This document shows, piece after piece, positions 1,228-47,182 of a DNA stretch of 64,000 nt. Both the position numbers and the translations under genes were made by a program. Positions within the stretch are counted from its first letter, which is position 1. Every line of letters starts with the position of its first letter. Source of the stretch: Actinomycetota bacterium. Its GTDB lineage: Bacteria; Actinomycetota; Acidimicrobiia; Acidimicrobiales; JAJPHD01. Location: positions 62,001 through 126,000 of the forward strand of contig JAJPHD010000004.1 in NCBI GenBank assembly GCA_021325455.1, given 5' to 3'. The notes below the pieces were generated by a model, which ran no database searches, was not told the DNA's origin, and was given only the letters and a program-made list of their open reading frames with translations.

Positions 1228-1842
1228 CTACCCGGGGGTGGCGATCCCGGCACTCCGGGCCATGCCCACCAGGGCTCCGGCGATGCTCTCGGGGGTGAGC
1301 ACCTGGTCCACGCAACCAGCCGATATGGCACTGGAGGGCATCCCCGGAGCGGCGGCGCTGGACGGGTCCTGGGCCAGCACCCTCCCGCCCCGGTCCTTCA
1401 CCGCCTGGGCCCCCCTCGTCCCGTCCCTGAGGCGGCCGGACCGCACCACCGCCACCACCCTGGCCCCCAGGGCCTCGGCCGCGCTGGTGAGCATGGCGTC
1501 GCCGCCCCCCAGGGCTAGGCGGGAACCGAGGACCAGCCGGTGCCCGGCATCGAGAGTGGCCGTACGGCCGGCGGGGATGACGGTCACCCCGGGGGGGCCG
1601 ACGGGCATGCCTTGGGTGGCCGTGCGCACCGGCAGCTCGGTCCGGCCCTTCAGCAGCCGGGAGAGGCGGCCCGGGTCAGGCTGGGCCCGCCCGTGCTGGA
1701 CCAGCACTATGGGCACCGGGAACCAGGAGGGGAGGCAGGCCAGCAGGCGGGAGATGGCATCGATGCCGCCCAGTGAGGCCACCACCACTATCAGCTTGGG
1801 GGACAGCGGGGAACCGGTCTCGCTGGCGGTGGGCATGGGCAC
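1228..1842 (-). CDS. CheB-type methylesterase domain protein
   Basis: This 204-residue protein is a free-standing CheB catalytic domain with no receiver domain. Its elements match the CheB Ser-His-Asp triad: VVVASLGG (Ser near residue 23), VLVQHG (His near 50) and RLRDGTRG (Asp near 142). In chemotaxis CheB removes methyl groups from receptor glutamates, but stand-alone actinobacterial copies lie away from receptor genes and their substrate is unknown. No cheR, cheA or receptor gene is in the window. It sits just downstream of a second CheB-like gene on the same strand. The usual GMGxDGxxG loop is reduced to RSGRLRDGTRG, so activity is plausible but not certain. Confidence 0.8.
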   Translation of the reverse strand: MPMPTASETGSPLSPKLIVVVASLGGIDAISRLLACLPSWFPVPIVLVQHGRAQPDPGRLSRLLKGRTELPVRTATQGMPVGPPGVTVIPAGRTATLDAGHRLVLGSRLALGGGDAMLTSAAEALGARVVAVVRSGRLRDGTRGAQAVKDRGGRVLAQDPSSAAAPGMPSSAISAGCVDQVLTPESIAGALVGMARSAGIATPG

Positions 1843-1845
1843 TCA

Positions 1846-2045
1846 TCACCCCGGGCTGGGAGGCCTCTCGTCCTCCGCCCCCCTCCCGGCCCGCCGGGGG
1901 GCGTCCTCGGCCCGCATGAGGATGATGGCCCCGTCGGGGCCGGTCCCCTTCAAGGGGTAGATCGACACCTGGCAGCGGATGGCACGCCCCCGGCGGGGTC
2001 GCCCCCGCCGGTGTCCTGGGGCGGATCGGGGTCCAGGTCGGTCAC
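1846..2045 (-). pseudogene. PAS-like C-terminal segment, out of frame with upstream CheB
   Basis: From 1980 down to a TGA at 1848-1846 the minus strand codes with excellent codon bias for a segment with IRCQVSIYPLKG and GAIILMRAED. That resembles the last strands of a PAS domain. No start codon exists in this frame before the segment. Adding one G to the G5 run at 1987-1991 would join it to the preceding frame, which carries a GTG at 2045 behind a strong GGAGGA and is also the CheB frame. The restored product would stop 3 nt before the next gene. This is either a single-base sequence error or a real frameshift. The feature start is the GTG candidate, not a proven start. Confidence 0.5.
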
Positions 2046-2741
2046 GGCCTCTCCTCCGTGGTGATGGGCCTCGTAGCCGGGCTCAGCCTCTGGCAGGGCG
2101 GCCAGACGGGTCACGGCAGCGGTGATGAGGGTGGCCAGCTCGTCGGCGGGAGCCACCTCGTCGGGGCTGGCAAAGCGAGCCGCGCTGGCCGGCATGCTGG
2201 GGAAGGCGGTGTCGGCGGGGTCCTGGGCCATGACCAGGGCCCCGGCCCTCTTCATCTCGATCAGCCCGGCCGTCCCGTCGTCGAGCATGCCCGACAGCAC
2301 CACTCCCACCCCGGCGGGACCGTACTCGGAGGCCGCCGAGCGGAACAAGGGGTCGACGGCGGGCCGCAGCCCGTTCTCCCGGGGCCCCCGCCACAGGCGG
2401 GCCCGGCCCTCCTCCACCACCAGGTGGTGGTCGGGGGGGGCCACGTATATGCGCCCGGTGAGGAGCTTCTCCCCGTCCTCCGCATGGCCGGCGGGGAGGG
2501 GGCCGCAGCGGCTCAGGATGCGCGGCAGGACGCTCGGGGACGAAGGGGACACGTGCAGCACGACCAGGACGGCGGCCTCGAGGTCAAGGGGCAGGCCCCG
2601 GACCAGGCGGCACAGCGCCTCGACCCCCCCGCCGAGGCCCCCACCACCACCACGCCGGCGGGCCGGCCCCCCCCCACGGCGCTCACCGTCCCCCGGGGGG
2701 AACCGGGTTCCCGGGGCGGGGGCGACGGTGGGGCGGCTCAC
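1950..2741 (-). CDS. CheB-type methylesterase, apparently frameshifted
   Basis: The body is a CheB catalytic domain: VLHVSPSS supplies the His, the RIYVAPPDHHL segment follows, and VVLSGMLDDGTAG supplies the Asp. As read, the N-terminus is low-complexity Arg/Gly and lacks the nucleophile. In the +1 frame the same DNA encodes VVVVGASAGG, the missing active-site Ser loop, starting from a GTG at 2686. A single extra G in the G7 run at 2624-2630 would join the two frames. So either a homopolymer error or a real mutation has broken the gene. Its 3' end also runs out of the good-codon frame near 1990. It heads a minus-strand cluster with the second CheB. Confidence 0.7.
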   Translation of the reverse strand: MSRPTVAPAPGTRFPPGDGERRGGGPARRRGGGGGLGGGVEALCRLVRGLPLDLEAAVLVVLHVSPSSPSVLPRILSRCGPLPAGHAEDGEKLLTGRIYVAPPDHHLVVEEGRARLWRGPRENGLRPAVDPLFRSAASEYGPAGVGVVLSGMLDDGTAGLIEMKRAGALVMAQDPADTAFPSMPASAARFASPDEVAPADELATLITAAVTRLAALPEAEPGYEAHHHGGEAVTDLDPDPPQDTGGGDPAGGVPSAARCRSTP

Positions 2742-2802: not shown

Positions 2803-3255
2803 TCAGTCAGGTGGGGTGAGGTGGGGGGGGAGCGTGGCCTTCACGCTCTTCACCCGCATGGCCCGCATGAGGGTGGCGAGCACCACACCGGGCGGGCCGG
2901 TGAGGCTGGCCGGGACATCCTCCTCACCCAGGCGGAAGGACTCCCCCAGGGAGACCACGAGCTCGGCGTGGGAGCGGAGGAGCGGGGGGAAGCGGAGGCT
3001 GCCCTCCTCGTACTCCGCCCATACCGCCTGGTCACCCACCGTCCCGTCCACCCGGAAGGAGGAAAGCCCCCCGGGCTGCGGGCGGGGCCGGCCTGCCGGG
3101 TGTGCGGGCCGCCAGGGAGGGCGAGCCTCCCGGCGGCGGACCGTCTCCATGCGCAGGAAGCGGGCCGTCTCCACCAGTTCCCGGCTGTGCTCGCTCAGCA
3201 CAACGGCCCGGGCGCAGGCCAACCTGCTCCGGACGATCACCCCCGACCCTTCCAC
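2803..3255 (-). CDS. hypothetical protein, upstream of the cheB pair
   Basis: A 150-residue protein starting from a GTG (MEGSGVIVRSRL) with a GAGGG-like sequence just before it. It has an N-terminal helical stretch (VLSEHSRELVETARFL), a Pro/Arg-rich linker, and a C-terminal part (ELVVSLGESFRLGEEDVP and GVVLATLMRAM). I do not recognise a family. The heptad-like leucine spacing at the N-terminus could pair with another helix. The cheB-like gene follows 61 nt downstream on the same strand, so it may be the first gene of that transcript and a regulatory partner, which is inference. Confidence 0.6.
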   Translation of the reverse strand: MEGSGVIVRSRLACARAVVLSEHSRELVETARFLRMETVRRREARPPWRPAHPAGRPRPQPGGLSSFRVDGTVGDQAVWAEYEEGSLRFPPLLRSHAELVVSLGESFRLGEEDVPASLTGPPGVVLATLMRAMRVKSVKATLPPHLTPPD

Positions 3256-3368: not shown

Positions 3369-4274
3369 GTGCTCGACTACCACCTCCACCTCTGGCCCCA
3401 CGGCGAGAGGGACCGCCAGCCCAGGGTGGAGGAGCTGGCCGCCTACTGGGACCGGGCCCGCTCGGCGGGTGTGACCGAGATCGCCCTCACCGAGCACCTG
3501 TTCCGCTTCCGCCAGGCCGATGCCCTGCTCGGGGGTTGGTGGGAGGAGGAGGGTGGGGACCCGGCGCTGCGGGCATCGGCCGCTTCCTACTGGCAGCGCC
3601 ACGTGGGGGCCGACCTGGACGAGTACGTGGCCACGGTCCTCGACGCCAAGGCCGCCGGTCTGCCGGTCGCCCTGGGCCTGGAGGTGGACTACTACCGGGG
3701 GCGCATGGACCAGGTGGCCGCCCTGCTGTCGGGGTACCCCTTCGACGTGCTGCTGGGCTCGGTCCACTGGCTGGGCCCCTGGCTGTTCGATGACCTGAGC
3801 GACGAGGTGGCCCAGGCCGAGTGGGGGAGGCGGGGAGTGGAGGCGGCCTGGGACGCCTACACCGAGGCCCTCTGCGAGCTGGCCGCCTCCGGTGTGTGCG
3901 ACGTCCTGGCCCACCCCGACCTGGCCAAGGTGGCCGGCCACCGCCCCCCCGACCTCCACGATCGCTACCAGCGCATGGCCGAGGCGGCTGGCGCCCACGG
4001 CATGGCCGCCGAGGTGTCCTCGGCCGGATGGCGCAAGCCAGCCCTGGAGGCCTATCCCGCCCCCGAGCTGCTCGAGCGGTTCTGCGCTCTCGGCGTCCCG
4101 GTCACGACGGCCTCCGACGCCCACGGCCTGGGGGACGTGGCCGACCGGGCGGGCGAGCTGGCGGGGCTGGTGCGGGGGGCCGGTTACGGGTCGCTCACGG
4201 CCTTCAGGGCCCGCCAGCCGGTGAAGGTGGACATCGGGGCCGGTGGGCCGGGAGCTACATTTCGTCCCGGATGA
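3369..4274 (+). CDS. PHP-family phosphatase, histidinol-phosphatase-like
   Basis: This 301-residue protein has the metal-ligand order of the PHP superfamily: HLH at residues 5-7, TEH near 41, a Glu in LGLEVDYYRG, GSVHW, LAHPDL and a terminal SDAHG. This is the pattern of HisK/HisJ-type histidinol phosphatases, which dephosphorylate L-histidinol phosphate in histidine synthesis, but related PHP enzymes act on other phosphates. No other his gene is nearby. The start is a GTG behind AGGA. Its TGA overlaps the ATG of the following histidine-kinase gene (ATGA at 4271-4274), so the two are translationally coupled, an unusual pairing for a biosynthetic enzyme. Confidence 0.85.
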   Translation: MLDYHLHLWPHGERDRQPRVEELAAYWDRARSAGVTEIALTEHLFRFRQADALLGGWWEEEGGDPALRASAASYWQRHVGADLDEYVATVLDAKAAGLPVALGLEVDYYRGRMDQVAALLSGYPFDVLLGSVHWLGPWLFDDLSDEVAQAEWGRRGVEAAWDAYTEALCELAASGVCDVLAHPDLAKVAGHRPPDLHDRYQRMAEAAGAHGMAAEVSSAGWRKPALEAYPAPELLERFCALGVPVTTASDAHGLGDVADRAGELAGLVRGAGYGSLTAFRARQPVKVDIGAGGPGATFRPG

Positions 4275-5767
4275 CGACCCCGGCAGAGGTGGTCCGCGAG
4301 CACACCGACCTGGACGGCGAGGACCTGACCCACCTGCAGGGGCTGATGGCGTGGTGGGGGATGCTGGCCGACCTCTCCTTCGCCGACCTGTTGCTGCTGG
4401 CACCGGACCGGGAGGGGGGCTTCGTGATCCTGGGCCAGATGAGGCCCAGCACCACCCAGACCGTCCACCCGCAGGACCTGGTGGGCCGGGTGGTGGAGGA
4501 GGCGGGCATGCCCCTGGTCGCCCGGGCCTGGCGCCTCCGGGAGATGGTGGAGGGGGAGAGGGAGCTGGGCCGGGGGGAGCGGGTGCGGAGCGAGTGCATC
4601 CCCGTCAGGCGGGAGGGGCGCCTGCTGGCCGTGCTGGACCGGGAGTCCCCGCTGTCGGTCCGGCGCCGCCCGGGTGAGCTGGAGCGGACCTATGTGTCTC
4701 TGTTCGGGCGTTTCGCCCGCATGGTGATGGAGGGGGCCTTCCCCTTCCCCTACGGCCAGGACGTGCCCGAGGGGGAGGAGTCCCCCCGGGTCGGTGACGG
4801 GGTGATCGTGCTCGACGAGGGGGCCCGGCTGGTCTACGCCTCGCCCAACGCCGTGAACGCCTTCCACCGCATGGGAGTCACGAGCAACCTGGCCGGCCTG
4901 CGCCTGGCCGAGCTGGGCGTGGACGACTCGGCCGTGCCGACCTCCTTCGAGACCGCCCGCCCCGTGACCGTGGAGATCGAGCGCCCCCCCGACGTGGTGG
5001 TGATGCTGCGCTGCATCCCGCTCCTGGCCGGCGGGCGCATGGACGGGGCCCTCGTGCTCCTCCGGGACATGACCGACCTGCGCCGGCGGGACCGCCTGCT
5101 CCTGTCCAAGGACGCCAGCATCAAGGAGGTGCACCACCGGGTCAAGAACAACCTCCAGACCATCTCTTCCCTGCTGCGCCTCCAGGCCCGCCGGCTGACC
5201 TCGGAGGAGGGGCGGGACGCCCTGCGGGAGGCCGAGAGGCGCATCCAGTCCATGGCGGCGGTGCACGAGATACTGTCCCGGGACGCCCGGGACCAGGTGC
5301 CCTTCGACCAGATCGTGCCCCTGCTGGTGCGGATGGCCGAGGACGCCGTGGTGGCTCCCTGCCCGGTGCGGGTGGAGGTGAGCGGGCATGCCGGCGAGCT
5401 GGTGGCCGAGGTGGCCACCCCGCTGGCGGTGGTCATCACCGAGCTGCTGCAGAATGCCGCCCAGCACGCCTTCGCCGACCTCTCCGAGGAGCCCCAGGGA
5501 GAGGAGGGCGAGGAGGGCCGGGTGCACCTGGACCTGAGGCGGGCCGGGGGGCGCCTCACGGTTCGCGTCCAGGACAACGGGCAGGGGCTACCGGAGGGAT
5601 TTCGCCTGGGCCAGCCGGCCAGCCTCGGGCTCTCGATCGTGAAGCACCTGGTGGCCGACCAGCTGGGGGGGACCATCACCATGTCCAGCGGGGCGGGCAC
5701 CCTGGCCGAGGTGAGCGTGCCCGTCCCCGAGGGGGCGGCCCAGCCCGCCGGCCCTCCCGTCGGCTAG
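4271..5767 (+). CDS. pdtaS: PdtaS-like sensor histidine kinase
   Basis: This 498-residue cytosolic kinase has no membrane segment. The layout matches mycobacterial PdtaS: an N-terminal GAF-like region (about 1-150), a PAS domain (about 175-275, with DGVIVLDEGARLVYASPN) and a HisKA_2 phosphoacceptor around residue 291 (EVHHRVKNNLQT). An HATPase domain follows with ELLQNAAQHA (N box), DNGQGLP (G1) and SLGLSIVKHLV (G2). PdtaS phosphorylates the ANTAR antiterminator PdtaR. No ANTAR gene is in the window, so the partner must lie elsewhere. The ATG at 4271 is chosen because it overlaps the upstream stop and because the residues before it are out of character. The gene converges on whiB with overlapping stop codons. 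Confidence 0.92.
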   Translation: MTTPAEVVREHTDLDGEDLTHLQGLMAWWGMLADLSFADLLLLAPDREGGFVILGQMRPSTTQTVHPQDLVGRVVEEAGMPLVARAWRLREMVEGERELGRGERVRSECIPVRREGRLLAVLDRESPLSVRRRPGELERTYVSLFGRFARMVMEGAFPFPYGQDVPEGEESPRVGDGVIVLDEGARLVYASPNAVNAFHRMGVTSNLAGLRLAELGVDDSAVPTSFETARPVTVEIERPPDVVVMLRCIPLLAGGRMDGALVLLRDMTDLRRRDRLLLSKDASIKEVHHRVKNNLQTISSLLRLQARRLTSEEGRDALREAERRIQSMAAVHEILSRDARDQVPFDQIVPLLVRMAEDAVVAPCPVRVEVSGHAGELVAEVATPLAVVITELLQNAAQHAFADLSEEPQGEEGEEGRVHLDLRRAGGRLTVRVQDNGQGLPEGFRLGQPASLGLSIVKHLVADQLGGTITMSSGAGTLAEVSVPVPEGAAQPAGPPVG

Positions 5768-13710: not shown

Positions 13711-14691
13711 GTGGATGCCGTCCTGGTCCTGCTGGCCCTGGGGTTCGCCTGGAGCATGGGCGCTCACTACACCGGAGCGTGCATGGGCATGCCCCGAGCC
13801 CTGGGCGCCATCGGGACCGGGGCGGCGCTGGTGGTCATGGCCCCTCTGGCCTGGCTGGGAGCCACCTTGGCCAGCCACGCCGTCGAGCACACCGTTGCCC
13901 ACGGGCTCACCACCTCCACCCTGGGGACAGGTGCCGAGGTCCTGGTGCTGGCCGTGGCCTTCGGCCTCACCACCGCCTACAACCGCCTGCGCATACCCAC
14001 CAGCACCATCCAGATCCTGGTGTCCTCCGTGGCGGGCACGGCGCTGGGGGCGGGCGTGGGCGTGCGGTGGGCCTCCATCGGGGAGCTGGCCACGGTCTGG
14101 GTGCTGGCCCCTGTGGTGGCGGCGGGGGTGGGCTTCACCCTCACCAGGTCCCTGGACCGGGCGGCGGCCTGGCGACACCGGGGCCATCTGGCGGCCGGCG
14201 ACCGGGCCGCCCCCTTCCGGTGGCTGGGCCCGGGCCTGGTGGGGGTGGGGGCGGCCGCCTCCTTCACCATGGGGAGCAACGACGTGGCCAACGCCACCGG
14301 TTCCCTGGTCGCGGCCCACCTCTTCTCCCCCCGGGTGGCCGGGGCGGTGGGGGGTGCCGGCCTGGCCCTCGGGGTCCTCACCGCCGGGCGGCCCCTGCTC
14401 CACCGGGTGGCCTTCGACATCGTCCATCTCGACCGGTCCATGGCCACGGCGGCCCAGGCCGTGCAGGCCTCCGTGGTCCTCCTGGCGGCCAGCCTGGGGT
14501 TCTTCACCTCCATGAACCAGGCCCTGGTGGGGGCCATGGCGGGTGCCGGCCTGGCCCGGGGGGTCCACACGGTCGAGCGCAAGACCCTGGTCGGCATCCT
14601 GCGGGGCTGGGTGCTGGGGCCGGCGGCCGGGTTGGCCGCCGGCTTCGTGGTGGCCCGCCTGGCCGCGCTGGCCGGTGTCCACCTGGCCTGA
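13711..14691 (+). CDS. PiT-family anion transporter with altered first repeat
   Basis: A 326-residue integral membrane protein with about nine or ten hydrophobic segments. The second repeat has the PiT signature (MGSNDVANATGS near residue 190), characteristic of low-affinity phosphate transporters that use protons or sodium. The first repeat, which normally has the matching GANDxANA motif, reads MGAHYTGACMGMPRALG instead, so the Asn-Asp pair is lost on one side. PiT relatives also carry sulfate (CysP), so the substrate is uncertain. The start is a GTG (VDAVLVLLALGFAW), placing the first helix at the N-terminus; the residues before it in the frame are Arg/Pro-rich and unconvincing. Confidence 0.82.
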   Translation: MDAVLVLLALGFAWSMGAHYTGACMGMPRALGAIGTGAALVVMAPLAWLGATLASHAVEHTVAHGLTTSTLGTGAEVLVLAVAFGLTTAYNRLRIPTSTIQILVSSVAGTALGAGVGVRWASIGELATVWVLAPVVAAGVGFTLTRSLDRAAAWRHRGHLAAGDRAAPFRWLGPGLVGVGAAASFTMGSNDVANATGSLVAAHLFSPRVAGAVGGAGLALGVLTAGRPLLHRVAFDIVHLDRSMATAAQAVQASVVLLAASLGFFTSMNQALVGAMAGAGLARGVHTVERKTLVGILRGWVLGPAAGLAAGFVVARLAALAGVHLA

Positions 14692-23385: not shown

Positions 23386-24032
23386 CCTTTGGACCTCCTC
23401 GGGGCCGCCCTCCGCCGGGGTGGGGGGAGGCCCGCCCCCAGCTGGTCGAAGGCGGCGGTGAGCAGGCCGGGCAGGGGCCTCCTGCCCTCGCTGGCCCGCC
23501 ACACCTGCACCGCCGCCCTGAGAGCGGACATGGCGGCGGCGGCGGCGAGGGCCGGGTAGAGGTCCCGCTCGGGATCGGTGTCGGTGCGGGCGGCGACCTC
23601 CTCGGCCAGGAGGCGCTCGAAGGTGGCGAAGAAGGCCAGGTGGCAGGCCAGCAGGCCGGGGTTCTCGCGCACCACCTTCATGCGCGCCAGCCACTCCTGC
23701 TCCCGCCCCCCCAGCTCGGCGGCCATGGCGCCCAGCGCCGAGCGCAGGATCTCGAGGGGGGGCTCGCCGGCGGGCCGGGCCGCCAGGGCCTGGCGCAGGC
23801 GGTCCACCCGGTCGGAGTCCATGCCCACCACGGCCTCCTCCTTGGAGGCGAAGTAGTTGAAGAAGGTGCGGGTGGACACGTCGGCGGCCTCGGCGATGTC
23901 CTCCACCGTGACGTGGTCGAAGCCCCTCTCGGCCACCAGGGCCAGCGCCGCCCGGCGCAAGGCCTGCCTGGTGGCCAGCTTCTTGCGGTCCCGGCGGCCG
24001 AGGCTGGCTTGGCCCAGGGTCGTCGCCGACAT
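23382..24032 (-). CDS. TetR-family repressor of the ABC exporter operon
   Basis: A 216-residue regulator with a TetR helix-turn-helix at about residues 10-60 (ALVAERGFDHVTVEDIAEAADVS split across the first two helices, then TRTFFNYFASKEE) and a variable helical ligand domain. It heads the five-gene operon and overlaps the ATPase gene by GTGA. I place the start at ATG 24032, which would be leaderless, because a TAACAT -10 hexamer lies 7 nt upstream inside a palindrome. ATG 24041 is in frame but falls within that hexamer. Self-repression relieved by the exporter's substrate is the usual arrangement, here inferred. Confidence 0.9.
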   Translation of the reverse strand: MSATTLGQASLGRRDRKKLATRQALRRAALALVAERGFDHVTVEDIAEAADVSTRTFFNYFASKEEAVVGMDSDRVDRLRQALAARPAGEPPLEILRSALGAMAAELGGREQEWLARMKVVRENPGLLACHLAFFATFERLLAEEVAARTDTDPERDLYPALAAAAAMSALRAAVQVWRASEGRRPLPGLLTAAFDQLGAGLPPPRRRAAPRRSKG

Positions 24033-45653: not shown

Positions 45654-47182
45654 GGTCCCCCGACTCCGAGGGCTTACCTCCGCTCCGCCAGGGTGGCCAG
45701 CCGGAGGCCGGGACAACGGGCCCCCCGCCTGGAGGTGGCCCCCCTCCCCGTGCCTATGCCCCCGGGTACAGGCAGGCCCAGGACGGGAGGGCCCGGCGCC
45801 CAGGTGAGGGCCGGGCCCCGGGGGCCCACCGGGGACGGGTCAGGGTCCCCCGGCCCCTGATCCCCCACCGCCTCCCCTCGGGCCGGGGCGCCACGGAGCA
45901 GCCCAACGCCGGGGACGACGAGGCGTCGGCGCCGCTGACCCTCACCTTCTGGCTCCTGGTCATAGCCACCGGGGTGGTCACCGGGCTCTTCGGGGACCTC
46001 ATGATGGTGGTGCTGCACGGCACCGCCCACCTGGTCTTCGGCTACAGCCACGGCAGCTTCCAGGCCGCCGCCGAGCGGGCCACCCCGGCCCGCCGGGTGG
46101 CGGGCCTGGCCGGCGGGGGGCTGGTGACGGGGGTGGCCTGGTACCTCATCCGGCGCTTCACCCCGGGCGAGCCCTCCGACCTGGATGAGTCCCTGTGGCA
46201 GGGGACCGGGTGGCTGTCGTTCCGGCGCAGCTTCGCCTCGTCGGTCGTCTCCGAGGTGGCGGTCGGCTCCGGCGCCTCCCTGGGGCGGGAGGCGGCCCCC
46301 AAGCTGATGGGCGCCGTGGCAGGAAGCGTGCTGGCCCGCTGGCGGCGGCTCACCCCCGGCCAGCGGCGGCTCCTCGTGGCCTGTGGCGGGGGGGCGGGCA
46401 TGGCCGCCGTCTACAACGTCCCCCTGGGGGGCACTCTGATCGCCGCCGAGCTGCTGTACGGGAGCCTCTCGCTCCCGGTCATCCTCCCCGCCCTGGCCTG
46501 CTCGTGGATCGCCACCGCCACGGCGTGGATCTACCTGCCCGTGCAGGCCACCTACACCGACGTCCCCGCCTACCACCTGCATGTCTCCCAGATCATCTTC
46601 GCCGTGGTGGTCGGGCCCCTCATAGGGCTCATCTCGGTGGGCTACATCCGCCTGATCGGCTGGGTCTCCCACCACAGCATCAGCGGGTGGAGGGTGGTCG
46701 TGGCCCCCCTCGGGGCCTTCACCGTGCTGGGCCTGGTGGGCCTGCGCTACCCCCAGCTCTTCGGCAACGGGAAGGACATGGCCCACCAGGTGTTCCTGGG
46801 CGGGGGCACCCTGGCCCTCCTGTTCGCCCTGTTCGCCCTGAAGCCGCTGGTGACCGCCCTGTGCCTGGGCAGCGGGGCCACCGGGGGCCTGTTCACGCCC
46901 ACCATGAGCACGGGGGCCATGCTGGGGGGGTTCCTGGGCCTGGCGTGGTCCCTGGCCTGGCCCGGGGCGGCGGTGGGCAGCTATGCCATCATCGGGGCCA
47001 CGGCCATGATCGGGGCTTCCATGCAGGCCCCCCTGGCCGCCCTGGCCCTGATGCTGGAGCTCACCCGCACCACCGACCGCATCATCGTGCCCATGATCGC
47101 CGCCACCGTGCTGGCCACCATGGTGGCCCGCTACCTCGACGGGTACTCCATCTACTCGGCCCGGCTCAAGGCCGAGAGGTAG
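45650..47182 (+). CDS. ClC-family chloride channel/antiporter
   Basis: A 510-residue membrane protein. The first ~85 residues are Pro/Gly/Arg-rich and likely disordered. About ten or more helices follow with ClC selectivity motifs: GSGASLGREAAPKL (GSGxP and GREGP-like) and SGATGGLFTPTMS (GxFxP-like). In ClC antiporters a gating Glu lies in the GREGP motif; here Glu is present. A cytoplasmic end without CBS domains follows. The GTG start overlaps the GntR stop; a start within the long disordered leader is equally possible. Confidence 0.87.
   Translation: MRSPDSEGLPPLRQGGQPEAGTTGPPPGGGPPPRAYAPGYRQAQDGRARRPGEGRAPGAHRGRVRVPRPLIPHRLPSGRGATEQPNAGDDEASAPLTLTFWLLVIATGVVTGLFGDLMMVVLHGTAHLVFGYSHGSFQAAAERATPARRVAGLAGGGLVTGVAWYLIRRFTPGEPSDLDESLWQGTGWLSFRRSFASSVVSEVAVGSGASLGREAAPKLMGAVAGSVLARWRRLTPGQRRLLVACGGGAGMAAVYNVPLGGTLIAAELLYGSLSLPVILPALACSWIATATAWIYLPVQATYTDVPAYHLHVSQIIFAVVVGPLIGLISVGYIRLIGWVSHHSISGWRVVVAPLGAFTVLGLVGLRYPQLFGNGKDMAHQVFLGGGTLALLFALFALKPLVTALCLGSGATGGLFTPTMSTGAMLGGFLGLAWSLAWPGAAVGSYAIIGATAMIGASMQAPLAALALMLELTRTTDRIIVPMIAATVLATMVARYLDGYSIYSARLKAER

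Follow-up and report, generated by a model that had tools for sequence, protein, structure and literature searches.

In Escherichia coli CheB the catalytic residues are Ser164, His190, and Asp286, as given in the part of the source cited here (PMC3180692). For frame changes at G tracts in actinobacterial coding genes, the closest described system is glpK: its seven-base poly-G tract is described, in the portion of the report on which we draw, as highly mutagenic in mycobacteria (PMC11898584), and frameshifting indels in the Mycobacterium tuberculosis G7 tract set a precedent for on/off switching in the excerpted accounts (PMC11898584, PMC8339072). The locus analyzed here lies in a 64,000-nucleotide stretch of DNA (the window) from a 2.95-Mb, 28-contig, 96% complete genome, in all likelihood that of an acidimicrobial actinobacterium. 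Like glpK as portrayed in those excerpts, it has a seven-base G tract within an actinobacterial coding gene and a frame change at that tract; length variation, however, is a feature of glpK, whereas the window locus is known from one assembly. The locus shares with the CheB methylesterase domain (PF01339) its His and Asp motifs, which are in frame, and a Ser loop that is present in the DNA. Unlike both that domain and E. coli CheB, it carries the Ser loop in another frame. The features on which the argument turns are these:

2624 to 2686, minus strand: N-terminal piece in frame 0 that carries VVVVGASAGG, the nucleophile loop of CheB (from translation and codon usage)
2624 to 2630, minus strand: G7 tract, the point at which the loop frame and the core frame part (from translation and the loop-to-Asp spacing)
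1950 to 2741, minus strand: frame-2 open reading frame with the CheB core, His and Asp; GTG at 2741, stop at 1950-1952 (from translation and Pfam)
1960 to 2010, minus strand: where a second frame change, from frame 2 to frame 1, probably lies (from codon usage only)
1849 to 1986, minus strand: 46-codon tail in frame 1, its codon usage good (from translation and codon usage, not homology)
1228 to 1842, minus strand: second, intact CheB-domain gene of 204 amino acids; GTG at 1842 (from the ORF list and Pfam)

As sequenced, the nucleophile loop and the core of the gene stand in different frames. Minus-strand translation in frame 0 reads VSAVGGGRPAGVVVVGASAGG from the GTG at 2686-2684 into the C7/G7 run at 2624-2630, with the Ser codon of the VVVVGASAGG loop at 2635-2633. 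The motifs VEALCRL, LHVSP (His codon 2555-2553), and LSGMLDDG (Asp codon 2279-2277) all fall in frame 2, which at the site of the loop encodes GGGGGLGGG and no Ser. The original prediction, that the frame carrying His and Asp lacks the active-site Ser and that a perfect loop sits behind a GTG in another frame, is thus borne out by the translations. Its further claim, that a single G within 2624-2630 separates the two frames, agrees with the spacing: the distance from the loop to the Asp motif is 344 nt in the window gene versus 345 nt (115 codons) in nine of the ten orthologs read, the tenth (L077) having 116 codons.

Codon usage tells the same story. Across 2688-2631 the codon log-odds are +6.6 in frame 0 and −8.2 in frame 2; across 2623-2010, successive segments of frame 2 score +8.6, +24.0, +30.2, and +9.0. 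Conservation of the frame-2 open reading frame begins at ~2624 and runs downward, and its N-terminus before ~2624 shows poor codon usage. The loop piece itself has a codon log-odds of 5.2, and values of at least 6 are reached by 1.5% of wrong-frame and 61% of true pieces of 63 nt. The frame break between loop and core is not due to chance.

The frame-2 open reading frame matches the Pfam CheB_methylest profile (PF01339) with 163.9 bits against a cut-off of 24, over profile positions 8 to 173 of 174, and the catalytic His and Asp of that family are present in LHVSP and LSGMLDDG and align with those of relatives. Both NCBIfam models for chemotaxis CheB scored below their cut-offs (NF009206, 124.1 bits versus 342; NF001965, 118.8 bits versus 293), and Pfam found no receiver domain in the gene. 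The genome, at 96% completeness, yielded no match to CheR and none to MCPsignal, and because both are missing we do not regard the gene as part of a classical chemotaxis system. In these respects it departs from E. coli CheB, and its domain content identifies it as a predicted stand-alone CheB-type esterase with no receiver domain. A 150-amino-acid open reading frame with no Pfam or NCBIfam match lies upstream of the gene (2803-3255, minus strand). On the opposite strand, near both CheB genes, is a histidine kinase open reading frame (3821-5767, plus strand) with PdtaS-type GAF, HisKA_2, and HATPase_c domains.

Relatives of the gene provide the ancestral state. Of 397 genomes in the order, 29 (the source genome among them) match the frame-2 open reading frame at E ≤ 1e-25. 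An alignment scan gathered 527 relatives, from which 80 loci (L176 to L255) in many phyla were kept; a scan of the same genome set with the single protein returned no relatives. At least 7 of 12 orthologs from the order are the same DNA as loci among the 80, and since the sets overlap their counts are not summed; the nearest genomes compared belong to other families than the window's genome. The core is the same as in these stand-alone CheB-like proteins, at 44 to 62% identity in the best segments listed. In every one of the 80, by contrast with the frame-broken window gene, loop, His, and Asp share one open frame, and each has a nucleophile (Ser in 79, Cys in 1). Within the 30 nt surrounding the end of the loop, G runs reach a maximum length of 2 to 6 in these 80 loci, never 7. 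Three orthologs that escaped the loop pattern, L073 and L074 (Cys for Ser) and L076 (truncated where its contig ends), were read separately, and in all three the loop is in frame. L073, L074, and L230 (JAJZKA010000057.1, the same DNA as L073) alike read GACAGG, in which Cys replaces the nucleophile Ser in a gene that is otherwise similar and in frame; this is a natural replacement of Ser by Cys, seen in two species that share a genus.

Because all 80 relatives are in frame and the window spacing is 1 nt short, the window sequence is one base shorter here than an in-frame ancestral gene would have been. The comparison gives good support to a stand-alone CheB esterase gene that was once in frame and whose G tract falls short by a single base. 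Since no relative is broken or carries G7, the break and the long tract are private to this lineage or to this assembly. Of 35 columns invariant in nine other sequences, the core of the window gene departs from 2; on the same count, which excluded L073, L074, L076, and L077, eight relatives depart in 1 to 4 of 34 to 37 and L005 in 12 of 45. Such conservation points to constraint that acts on the gene even now or was lifted only recently.

The original prediction held that the gene would otherwise be normal, and this was too strong: a C-terminal stretch is missing, and a second frame change is probable near 2010-1960. The stretch in question, a CxxC...CxxGH motif, occurs in 76 of the 80 relatives and is absent from the window gene in any of the three frames, as it is from the other 4; in two full relative proteins scanned it had no Pfam match above cut-off. 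No frame is clear at 2010-1960, and at 1960-1870 frame 1 reaches a codon log-odds of +10.3. This is the score of the 46-codon tail, and values of at least 10 are attained by 1% of wrong-frame and 78% of true pieces of equal length, although the same is true of 8% of pieces taken from the gaps that separate selected open reading frames. The first stop past the tail (1848-1846) comes three bases ahead of the GTG with which the second CheB gene begins. The tail, which may resemble a PAS strand pair, has no Pfam match, and in relatives it found weak matches only, the best at E 0.001 in one genome and with low bit scores. The second frame change is therefore probable from codon usage, without support from homology.

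How the base came to be missing depends in part on how prone this assembly is to frame breaks, which we surveyed by aligning the proteins of relatives by tblastn to 811 kb of the genome. In the 201,299 bp covered there were one clear break (L028) and one doubtful break (L094); the reverse test on control genomes of relatives gave 4 break sites in 257,805 bp. Breaks in this genome are rare and no commoner than in the controls, in a survey that is blind to breaks close to gene ends, the break in the window CheB gene included. The clear break lies at about 14049-14070 on the minus strand of L028 (G000:C2), at a G6 run, and three queries agree on it. Homologs spanned 313 G/C runs of at least 6 in frame (232 of 6, 67 of 7, 13 of 8, and 1 of 9); the spanned runs of at least 7 numbered 81, all in frame. 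A codon-usage frame model applied to the window and to 20 genome stretches placed a frame change at 2640 at a penalty of 12 nats and none at 18. Of its other calls, that at 23422 appeared by eye to be a boundary between genes that look TetR-like and ABC-transporter-like, and that at 45753 lacked clear coding support by eye. The model made many false calls near gene ends, and the break rate was therefore taken from homology instead.

The original prediction had left the choice between a homopolymer call error and a real frame change, and this alternative was rightly drawn; the 80 loci add that the ancestral gene was in frame. We lean slightly, and with less than even confidence, toward a slipped-strand deletion that is real and recent, rather than an error in the consensus. 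On this reading, the G homopolymer beside the catalytic Ser loop would have lost one base by slippage, leaving this CheB copy off in the sequenced population, and translation would give either a Ser-less protein of 263 amino acids, starting at GTG 2741, or, from GTG 2686, a short product that runs out of frame. We favor a real slip because the break rate is low, a second frame change is probable, the C-terminal stretch is lost, and the glpK G7 tract is mutagenic in the portion of the literature cited above. With its C-terminal stretch missing and its frame probably changed a second time, the gene looks to be on its way out, and the deletion may accordingly have struck a copy already being lost beside an intact CheB-domain gene. 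Such an event is of an ordinary kind. Against it stand a stop-free core frame and an undecayed core, its departures from invariant columns being as few as in intact relatives; the second frame change, moreover, found no support from homology. Missing mismatch repair genes speak for a slip, though not specifically. Neither MutS (MutS_V) nor NucS (NucS_C) had a match in the 96% complete genome, and among the 57 genomes searched, its own included, MutS_V is present in 4 and missing from 53 and NucS_C is present in 29 and missing from 28, which makes the absences unspecific.

A consensus error would give the identical picture. If the assembly under-called the G tract, the gene would be in frame in the cell, as its fully conserved and stop-free core would lead one to expect; each of the two frame changes fits one missing base in G/C-rich DNA, and the sequence comes from a 28-contig assembly with 72% G+C in the 811 kb sampled. 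We regard this as a serious possibility, to which we nonetheless give well under even weight: every homolog-spanned G/C run of at least 7 is in frame, clear and doubtful breaks together come to two in 201 kb, and, barring locally poor coverage, one would not expect two errors within about 650 bp.

We consider it unlikely that this is a phase-variable or slippage-expressed CheB-type esterase in which G7 switches the Ser in and out, in a genome where MCP, MutS, and NucS were not found. Its first form, in which slipped-strand mispairing varies the tract length between cells and toggles the esterase, the assembly having caught the off state, strikes us as improbable. The G7 comes directly after the nucleophile codon, the core is still conserved, the two repair proteins were not detected, and the glpK tract of M. 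tuberculosis offers a precedent in the excerpts cited (PMC11898584, PMC8339072). The tract is not kept among relatives, however, none of the 80 having a G run beyond 6, and this genome has so many runs of at least 7 G or C that one more requires no selection. The 811 kb sampled contain 454 of them; of two relatives, G011 has 55 in 791 kb and G006 none in 400 kb, and all three counts lie below a first-order expectation. A DNA pattern spanning the tract had no match in viral contigs.

Its second form, programmed −1 ribosomal frameshifting or transcript slippage at G7 that yields a joined protein, we hold to be very improbable. The loop frame reads GCG GGG GGG, which puts G GGG GGG in phase for a tandem −1 slip, but the slippery site is not conserved in the relatives and the second frame change would be left unexplained. 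In a pseudoknot-free model the 60 nt downstream of the tract fold at −22.1 kcal/mol, and 61% of 300 random 60-mers from the window fold at this value or lower; with the site unconserved and no structure standing out in this fold, programmed frameshifting is unlikely. Least probable of all is a real Ser-less CheB-like protein that starts at GTG 2741 with a Gly-rich N-terminus and binds without cleaving, for although the frame-2 open reading frame is open and its core conserved, the codon usage of that N-terminus is strongly negative where frame 0 is positive, a perfect loop lies in the other frame, and none of the 80 relatives is without a nucleophile.

The finding is mainly a caution for annotation: a gene caller would list a 263-amino-acid CheB protein without a nucleophile here, in a family whose relatives have a normal active site. 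If the length of the tract does vary in the population, the locus would be a switch that turns on and off a CheB-type esterase outside chemotaxis, comparable to the G7 tract of glpK as that tract is described in the excerpts cited.
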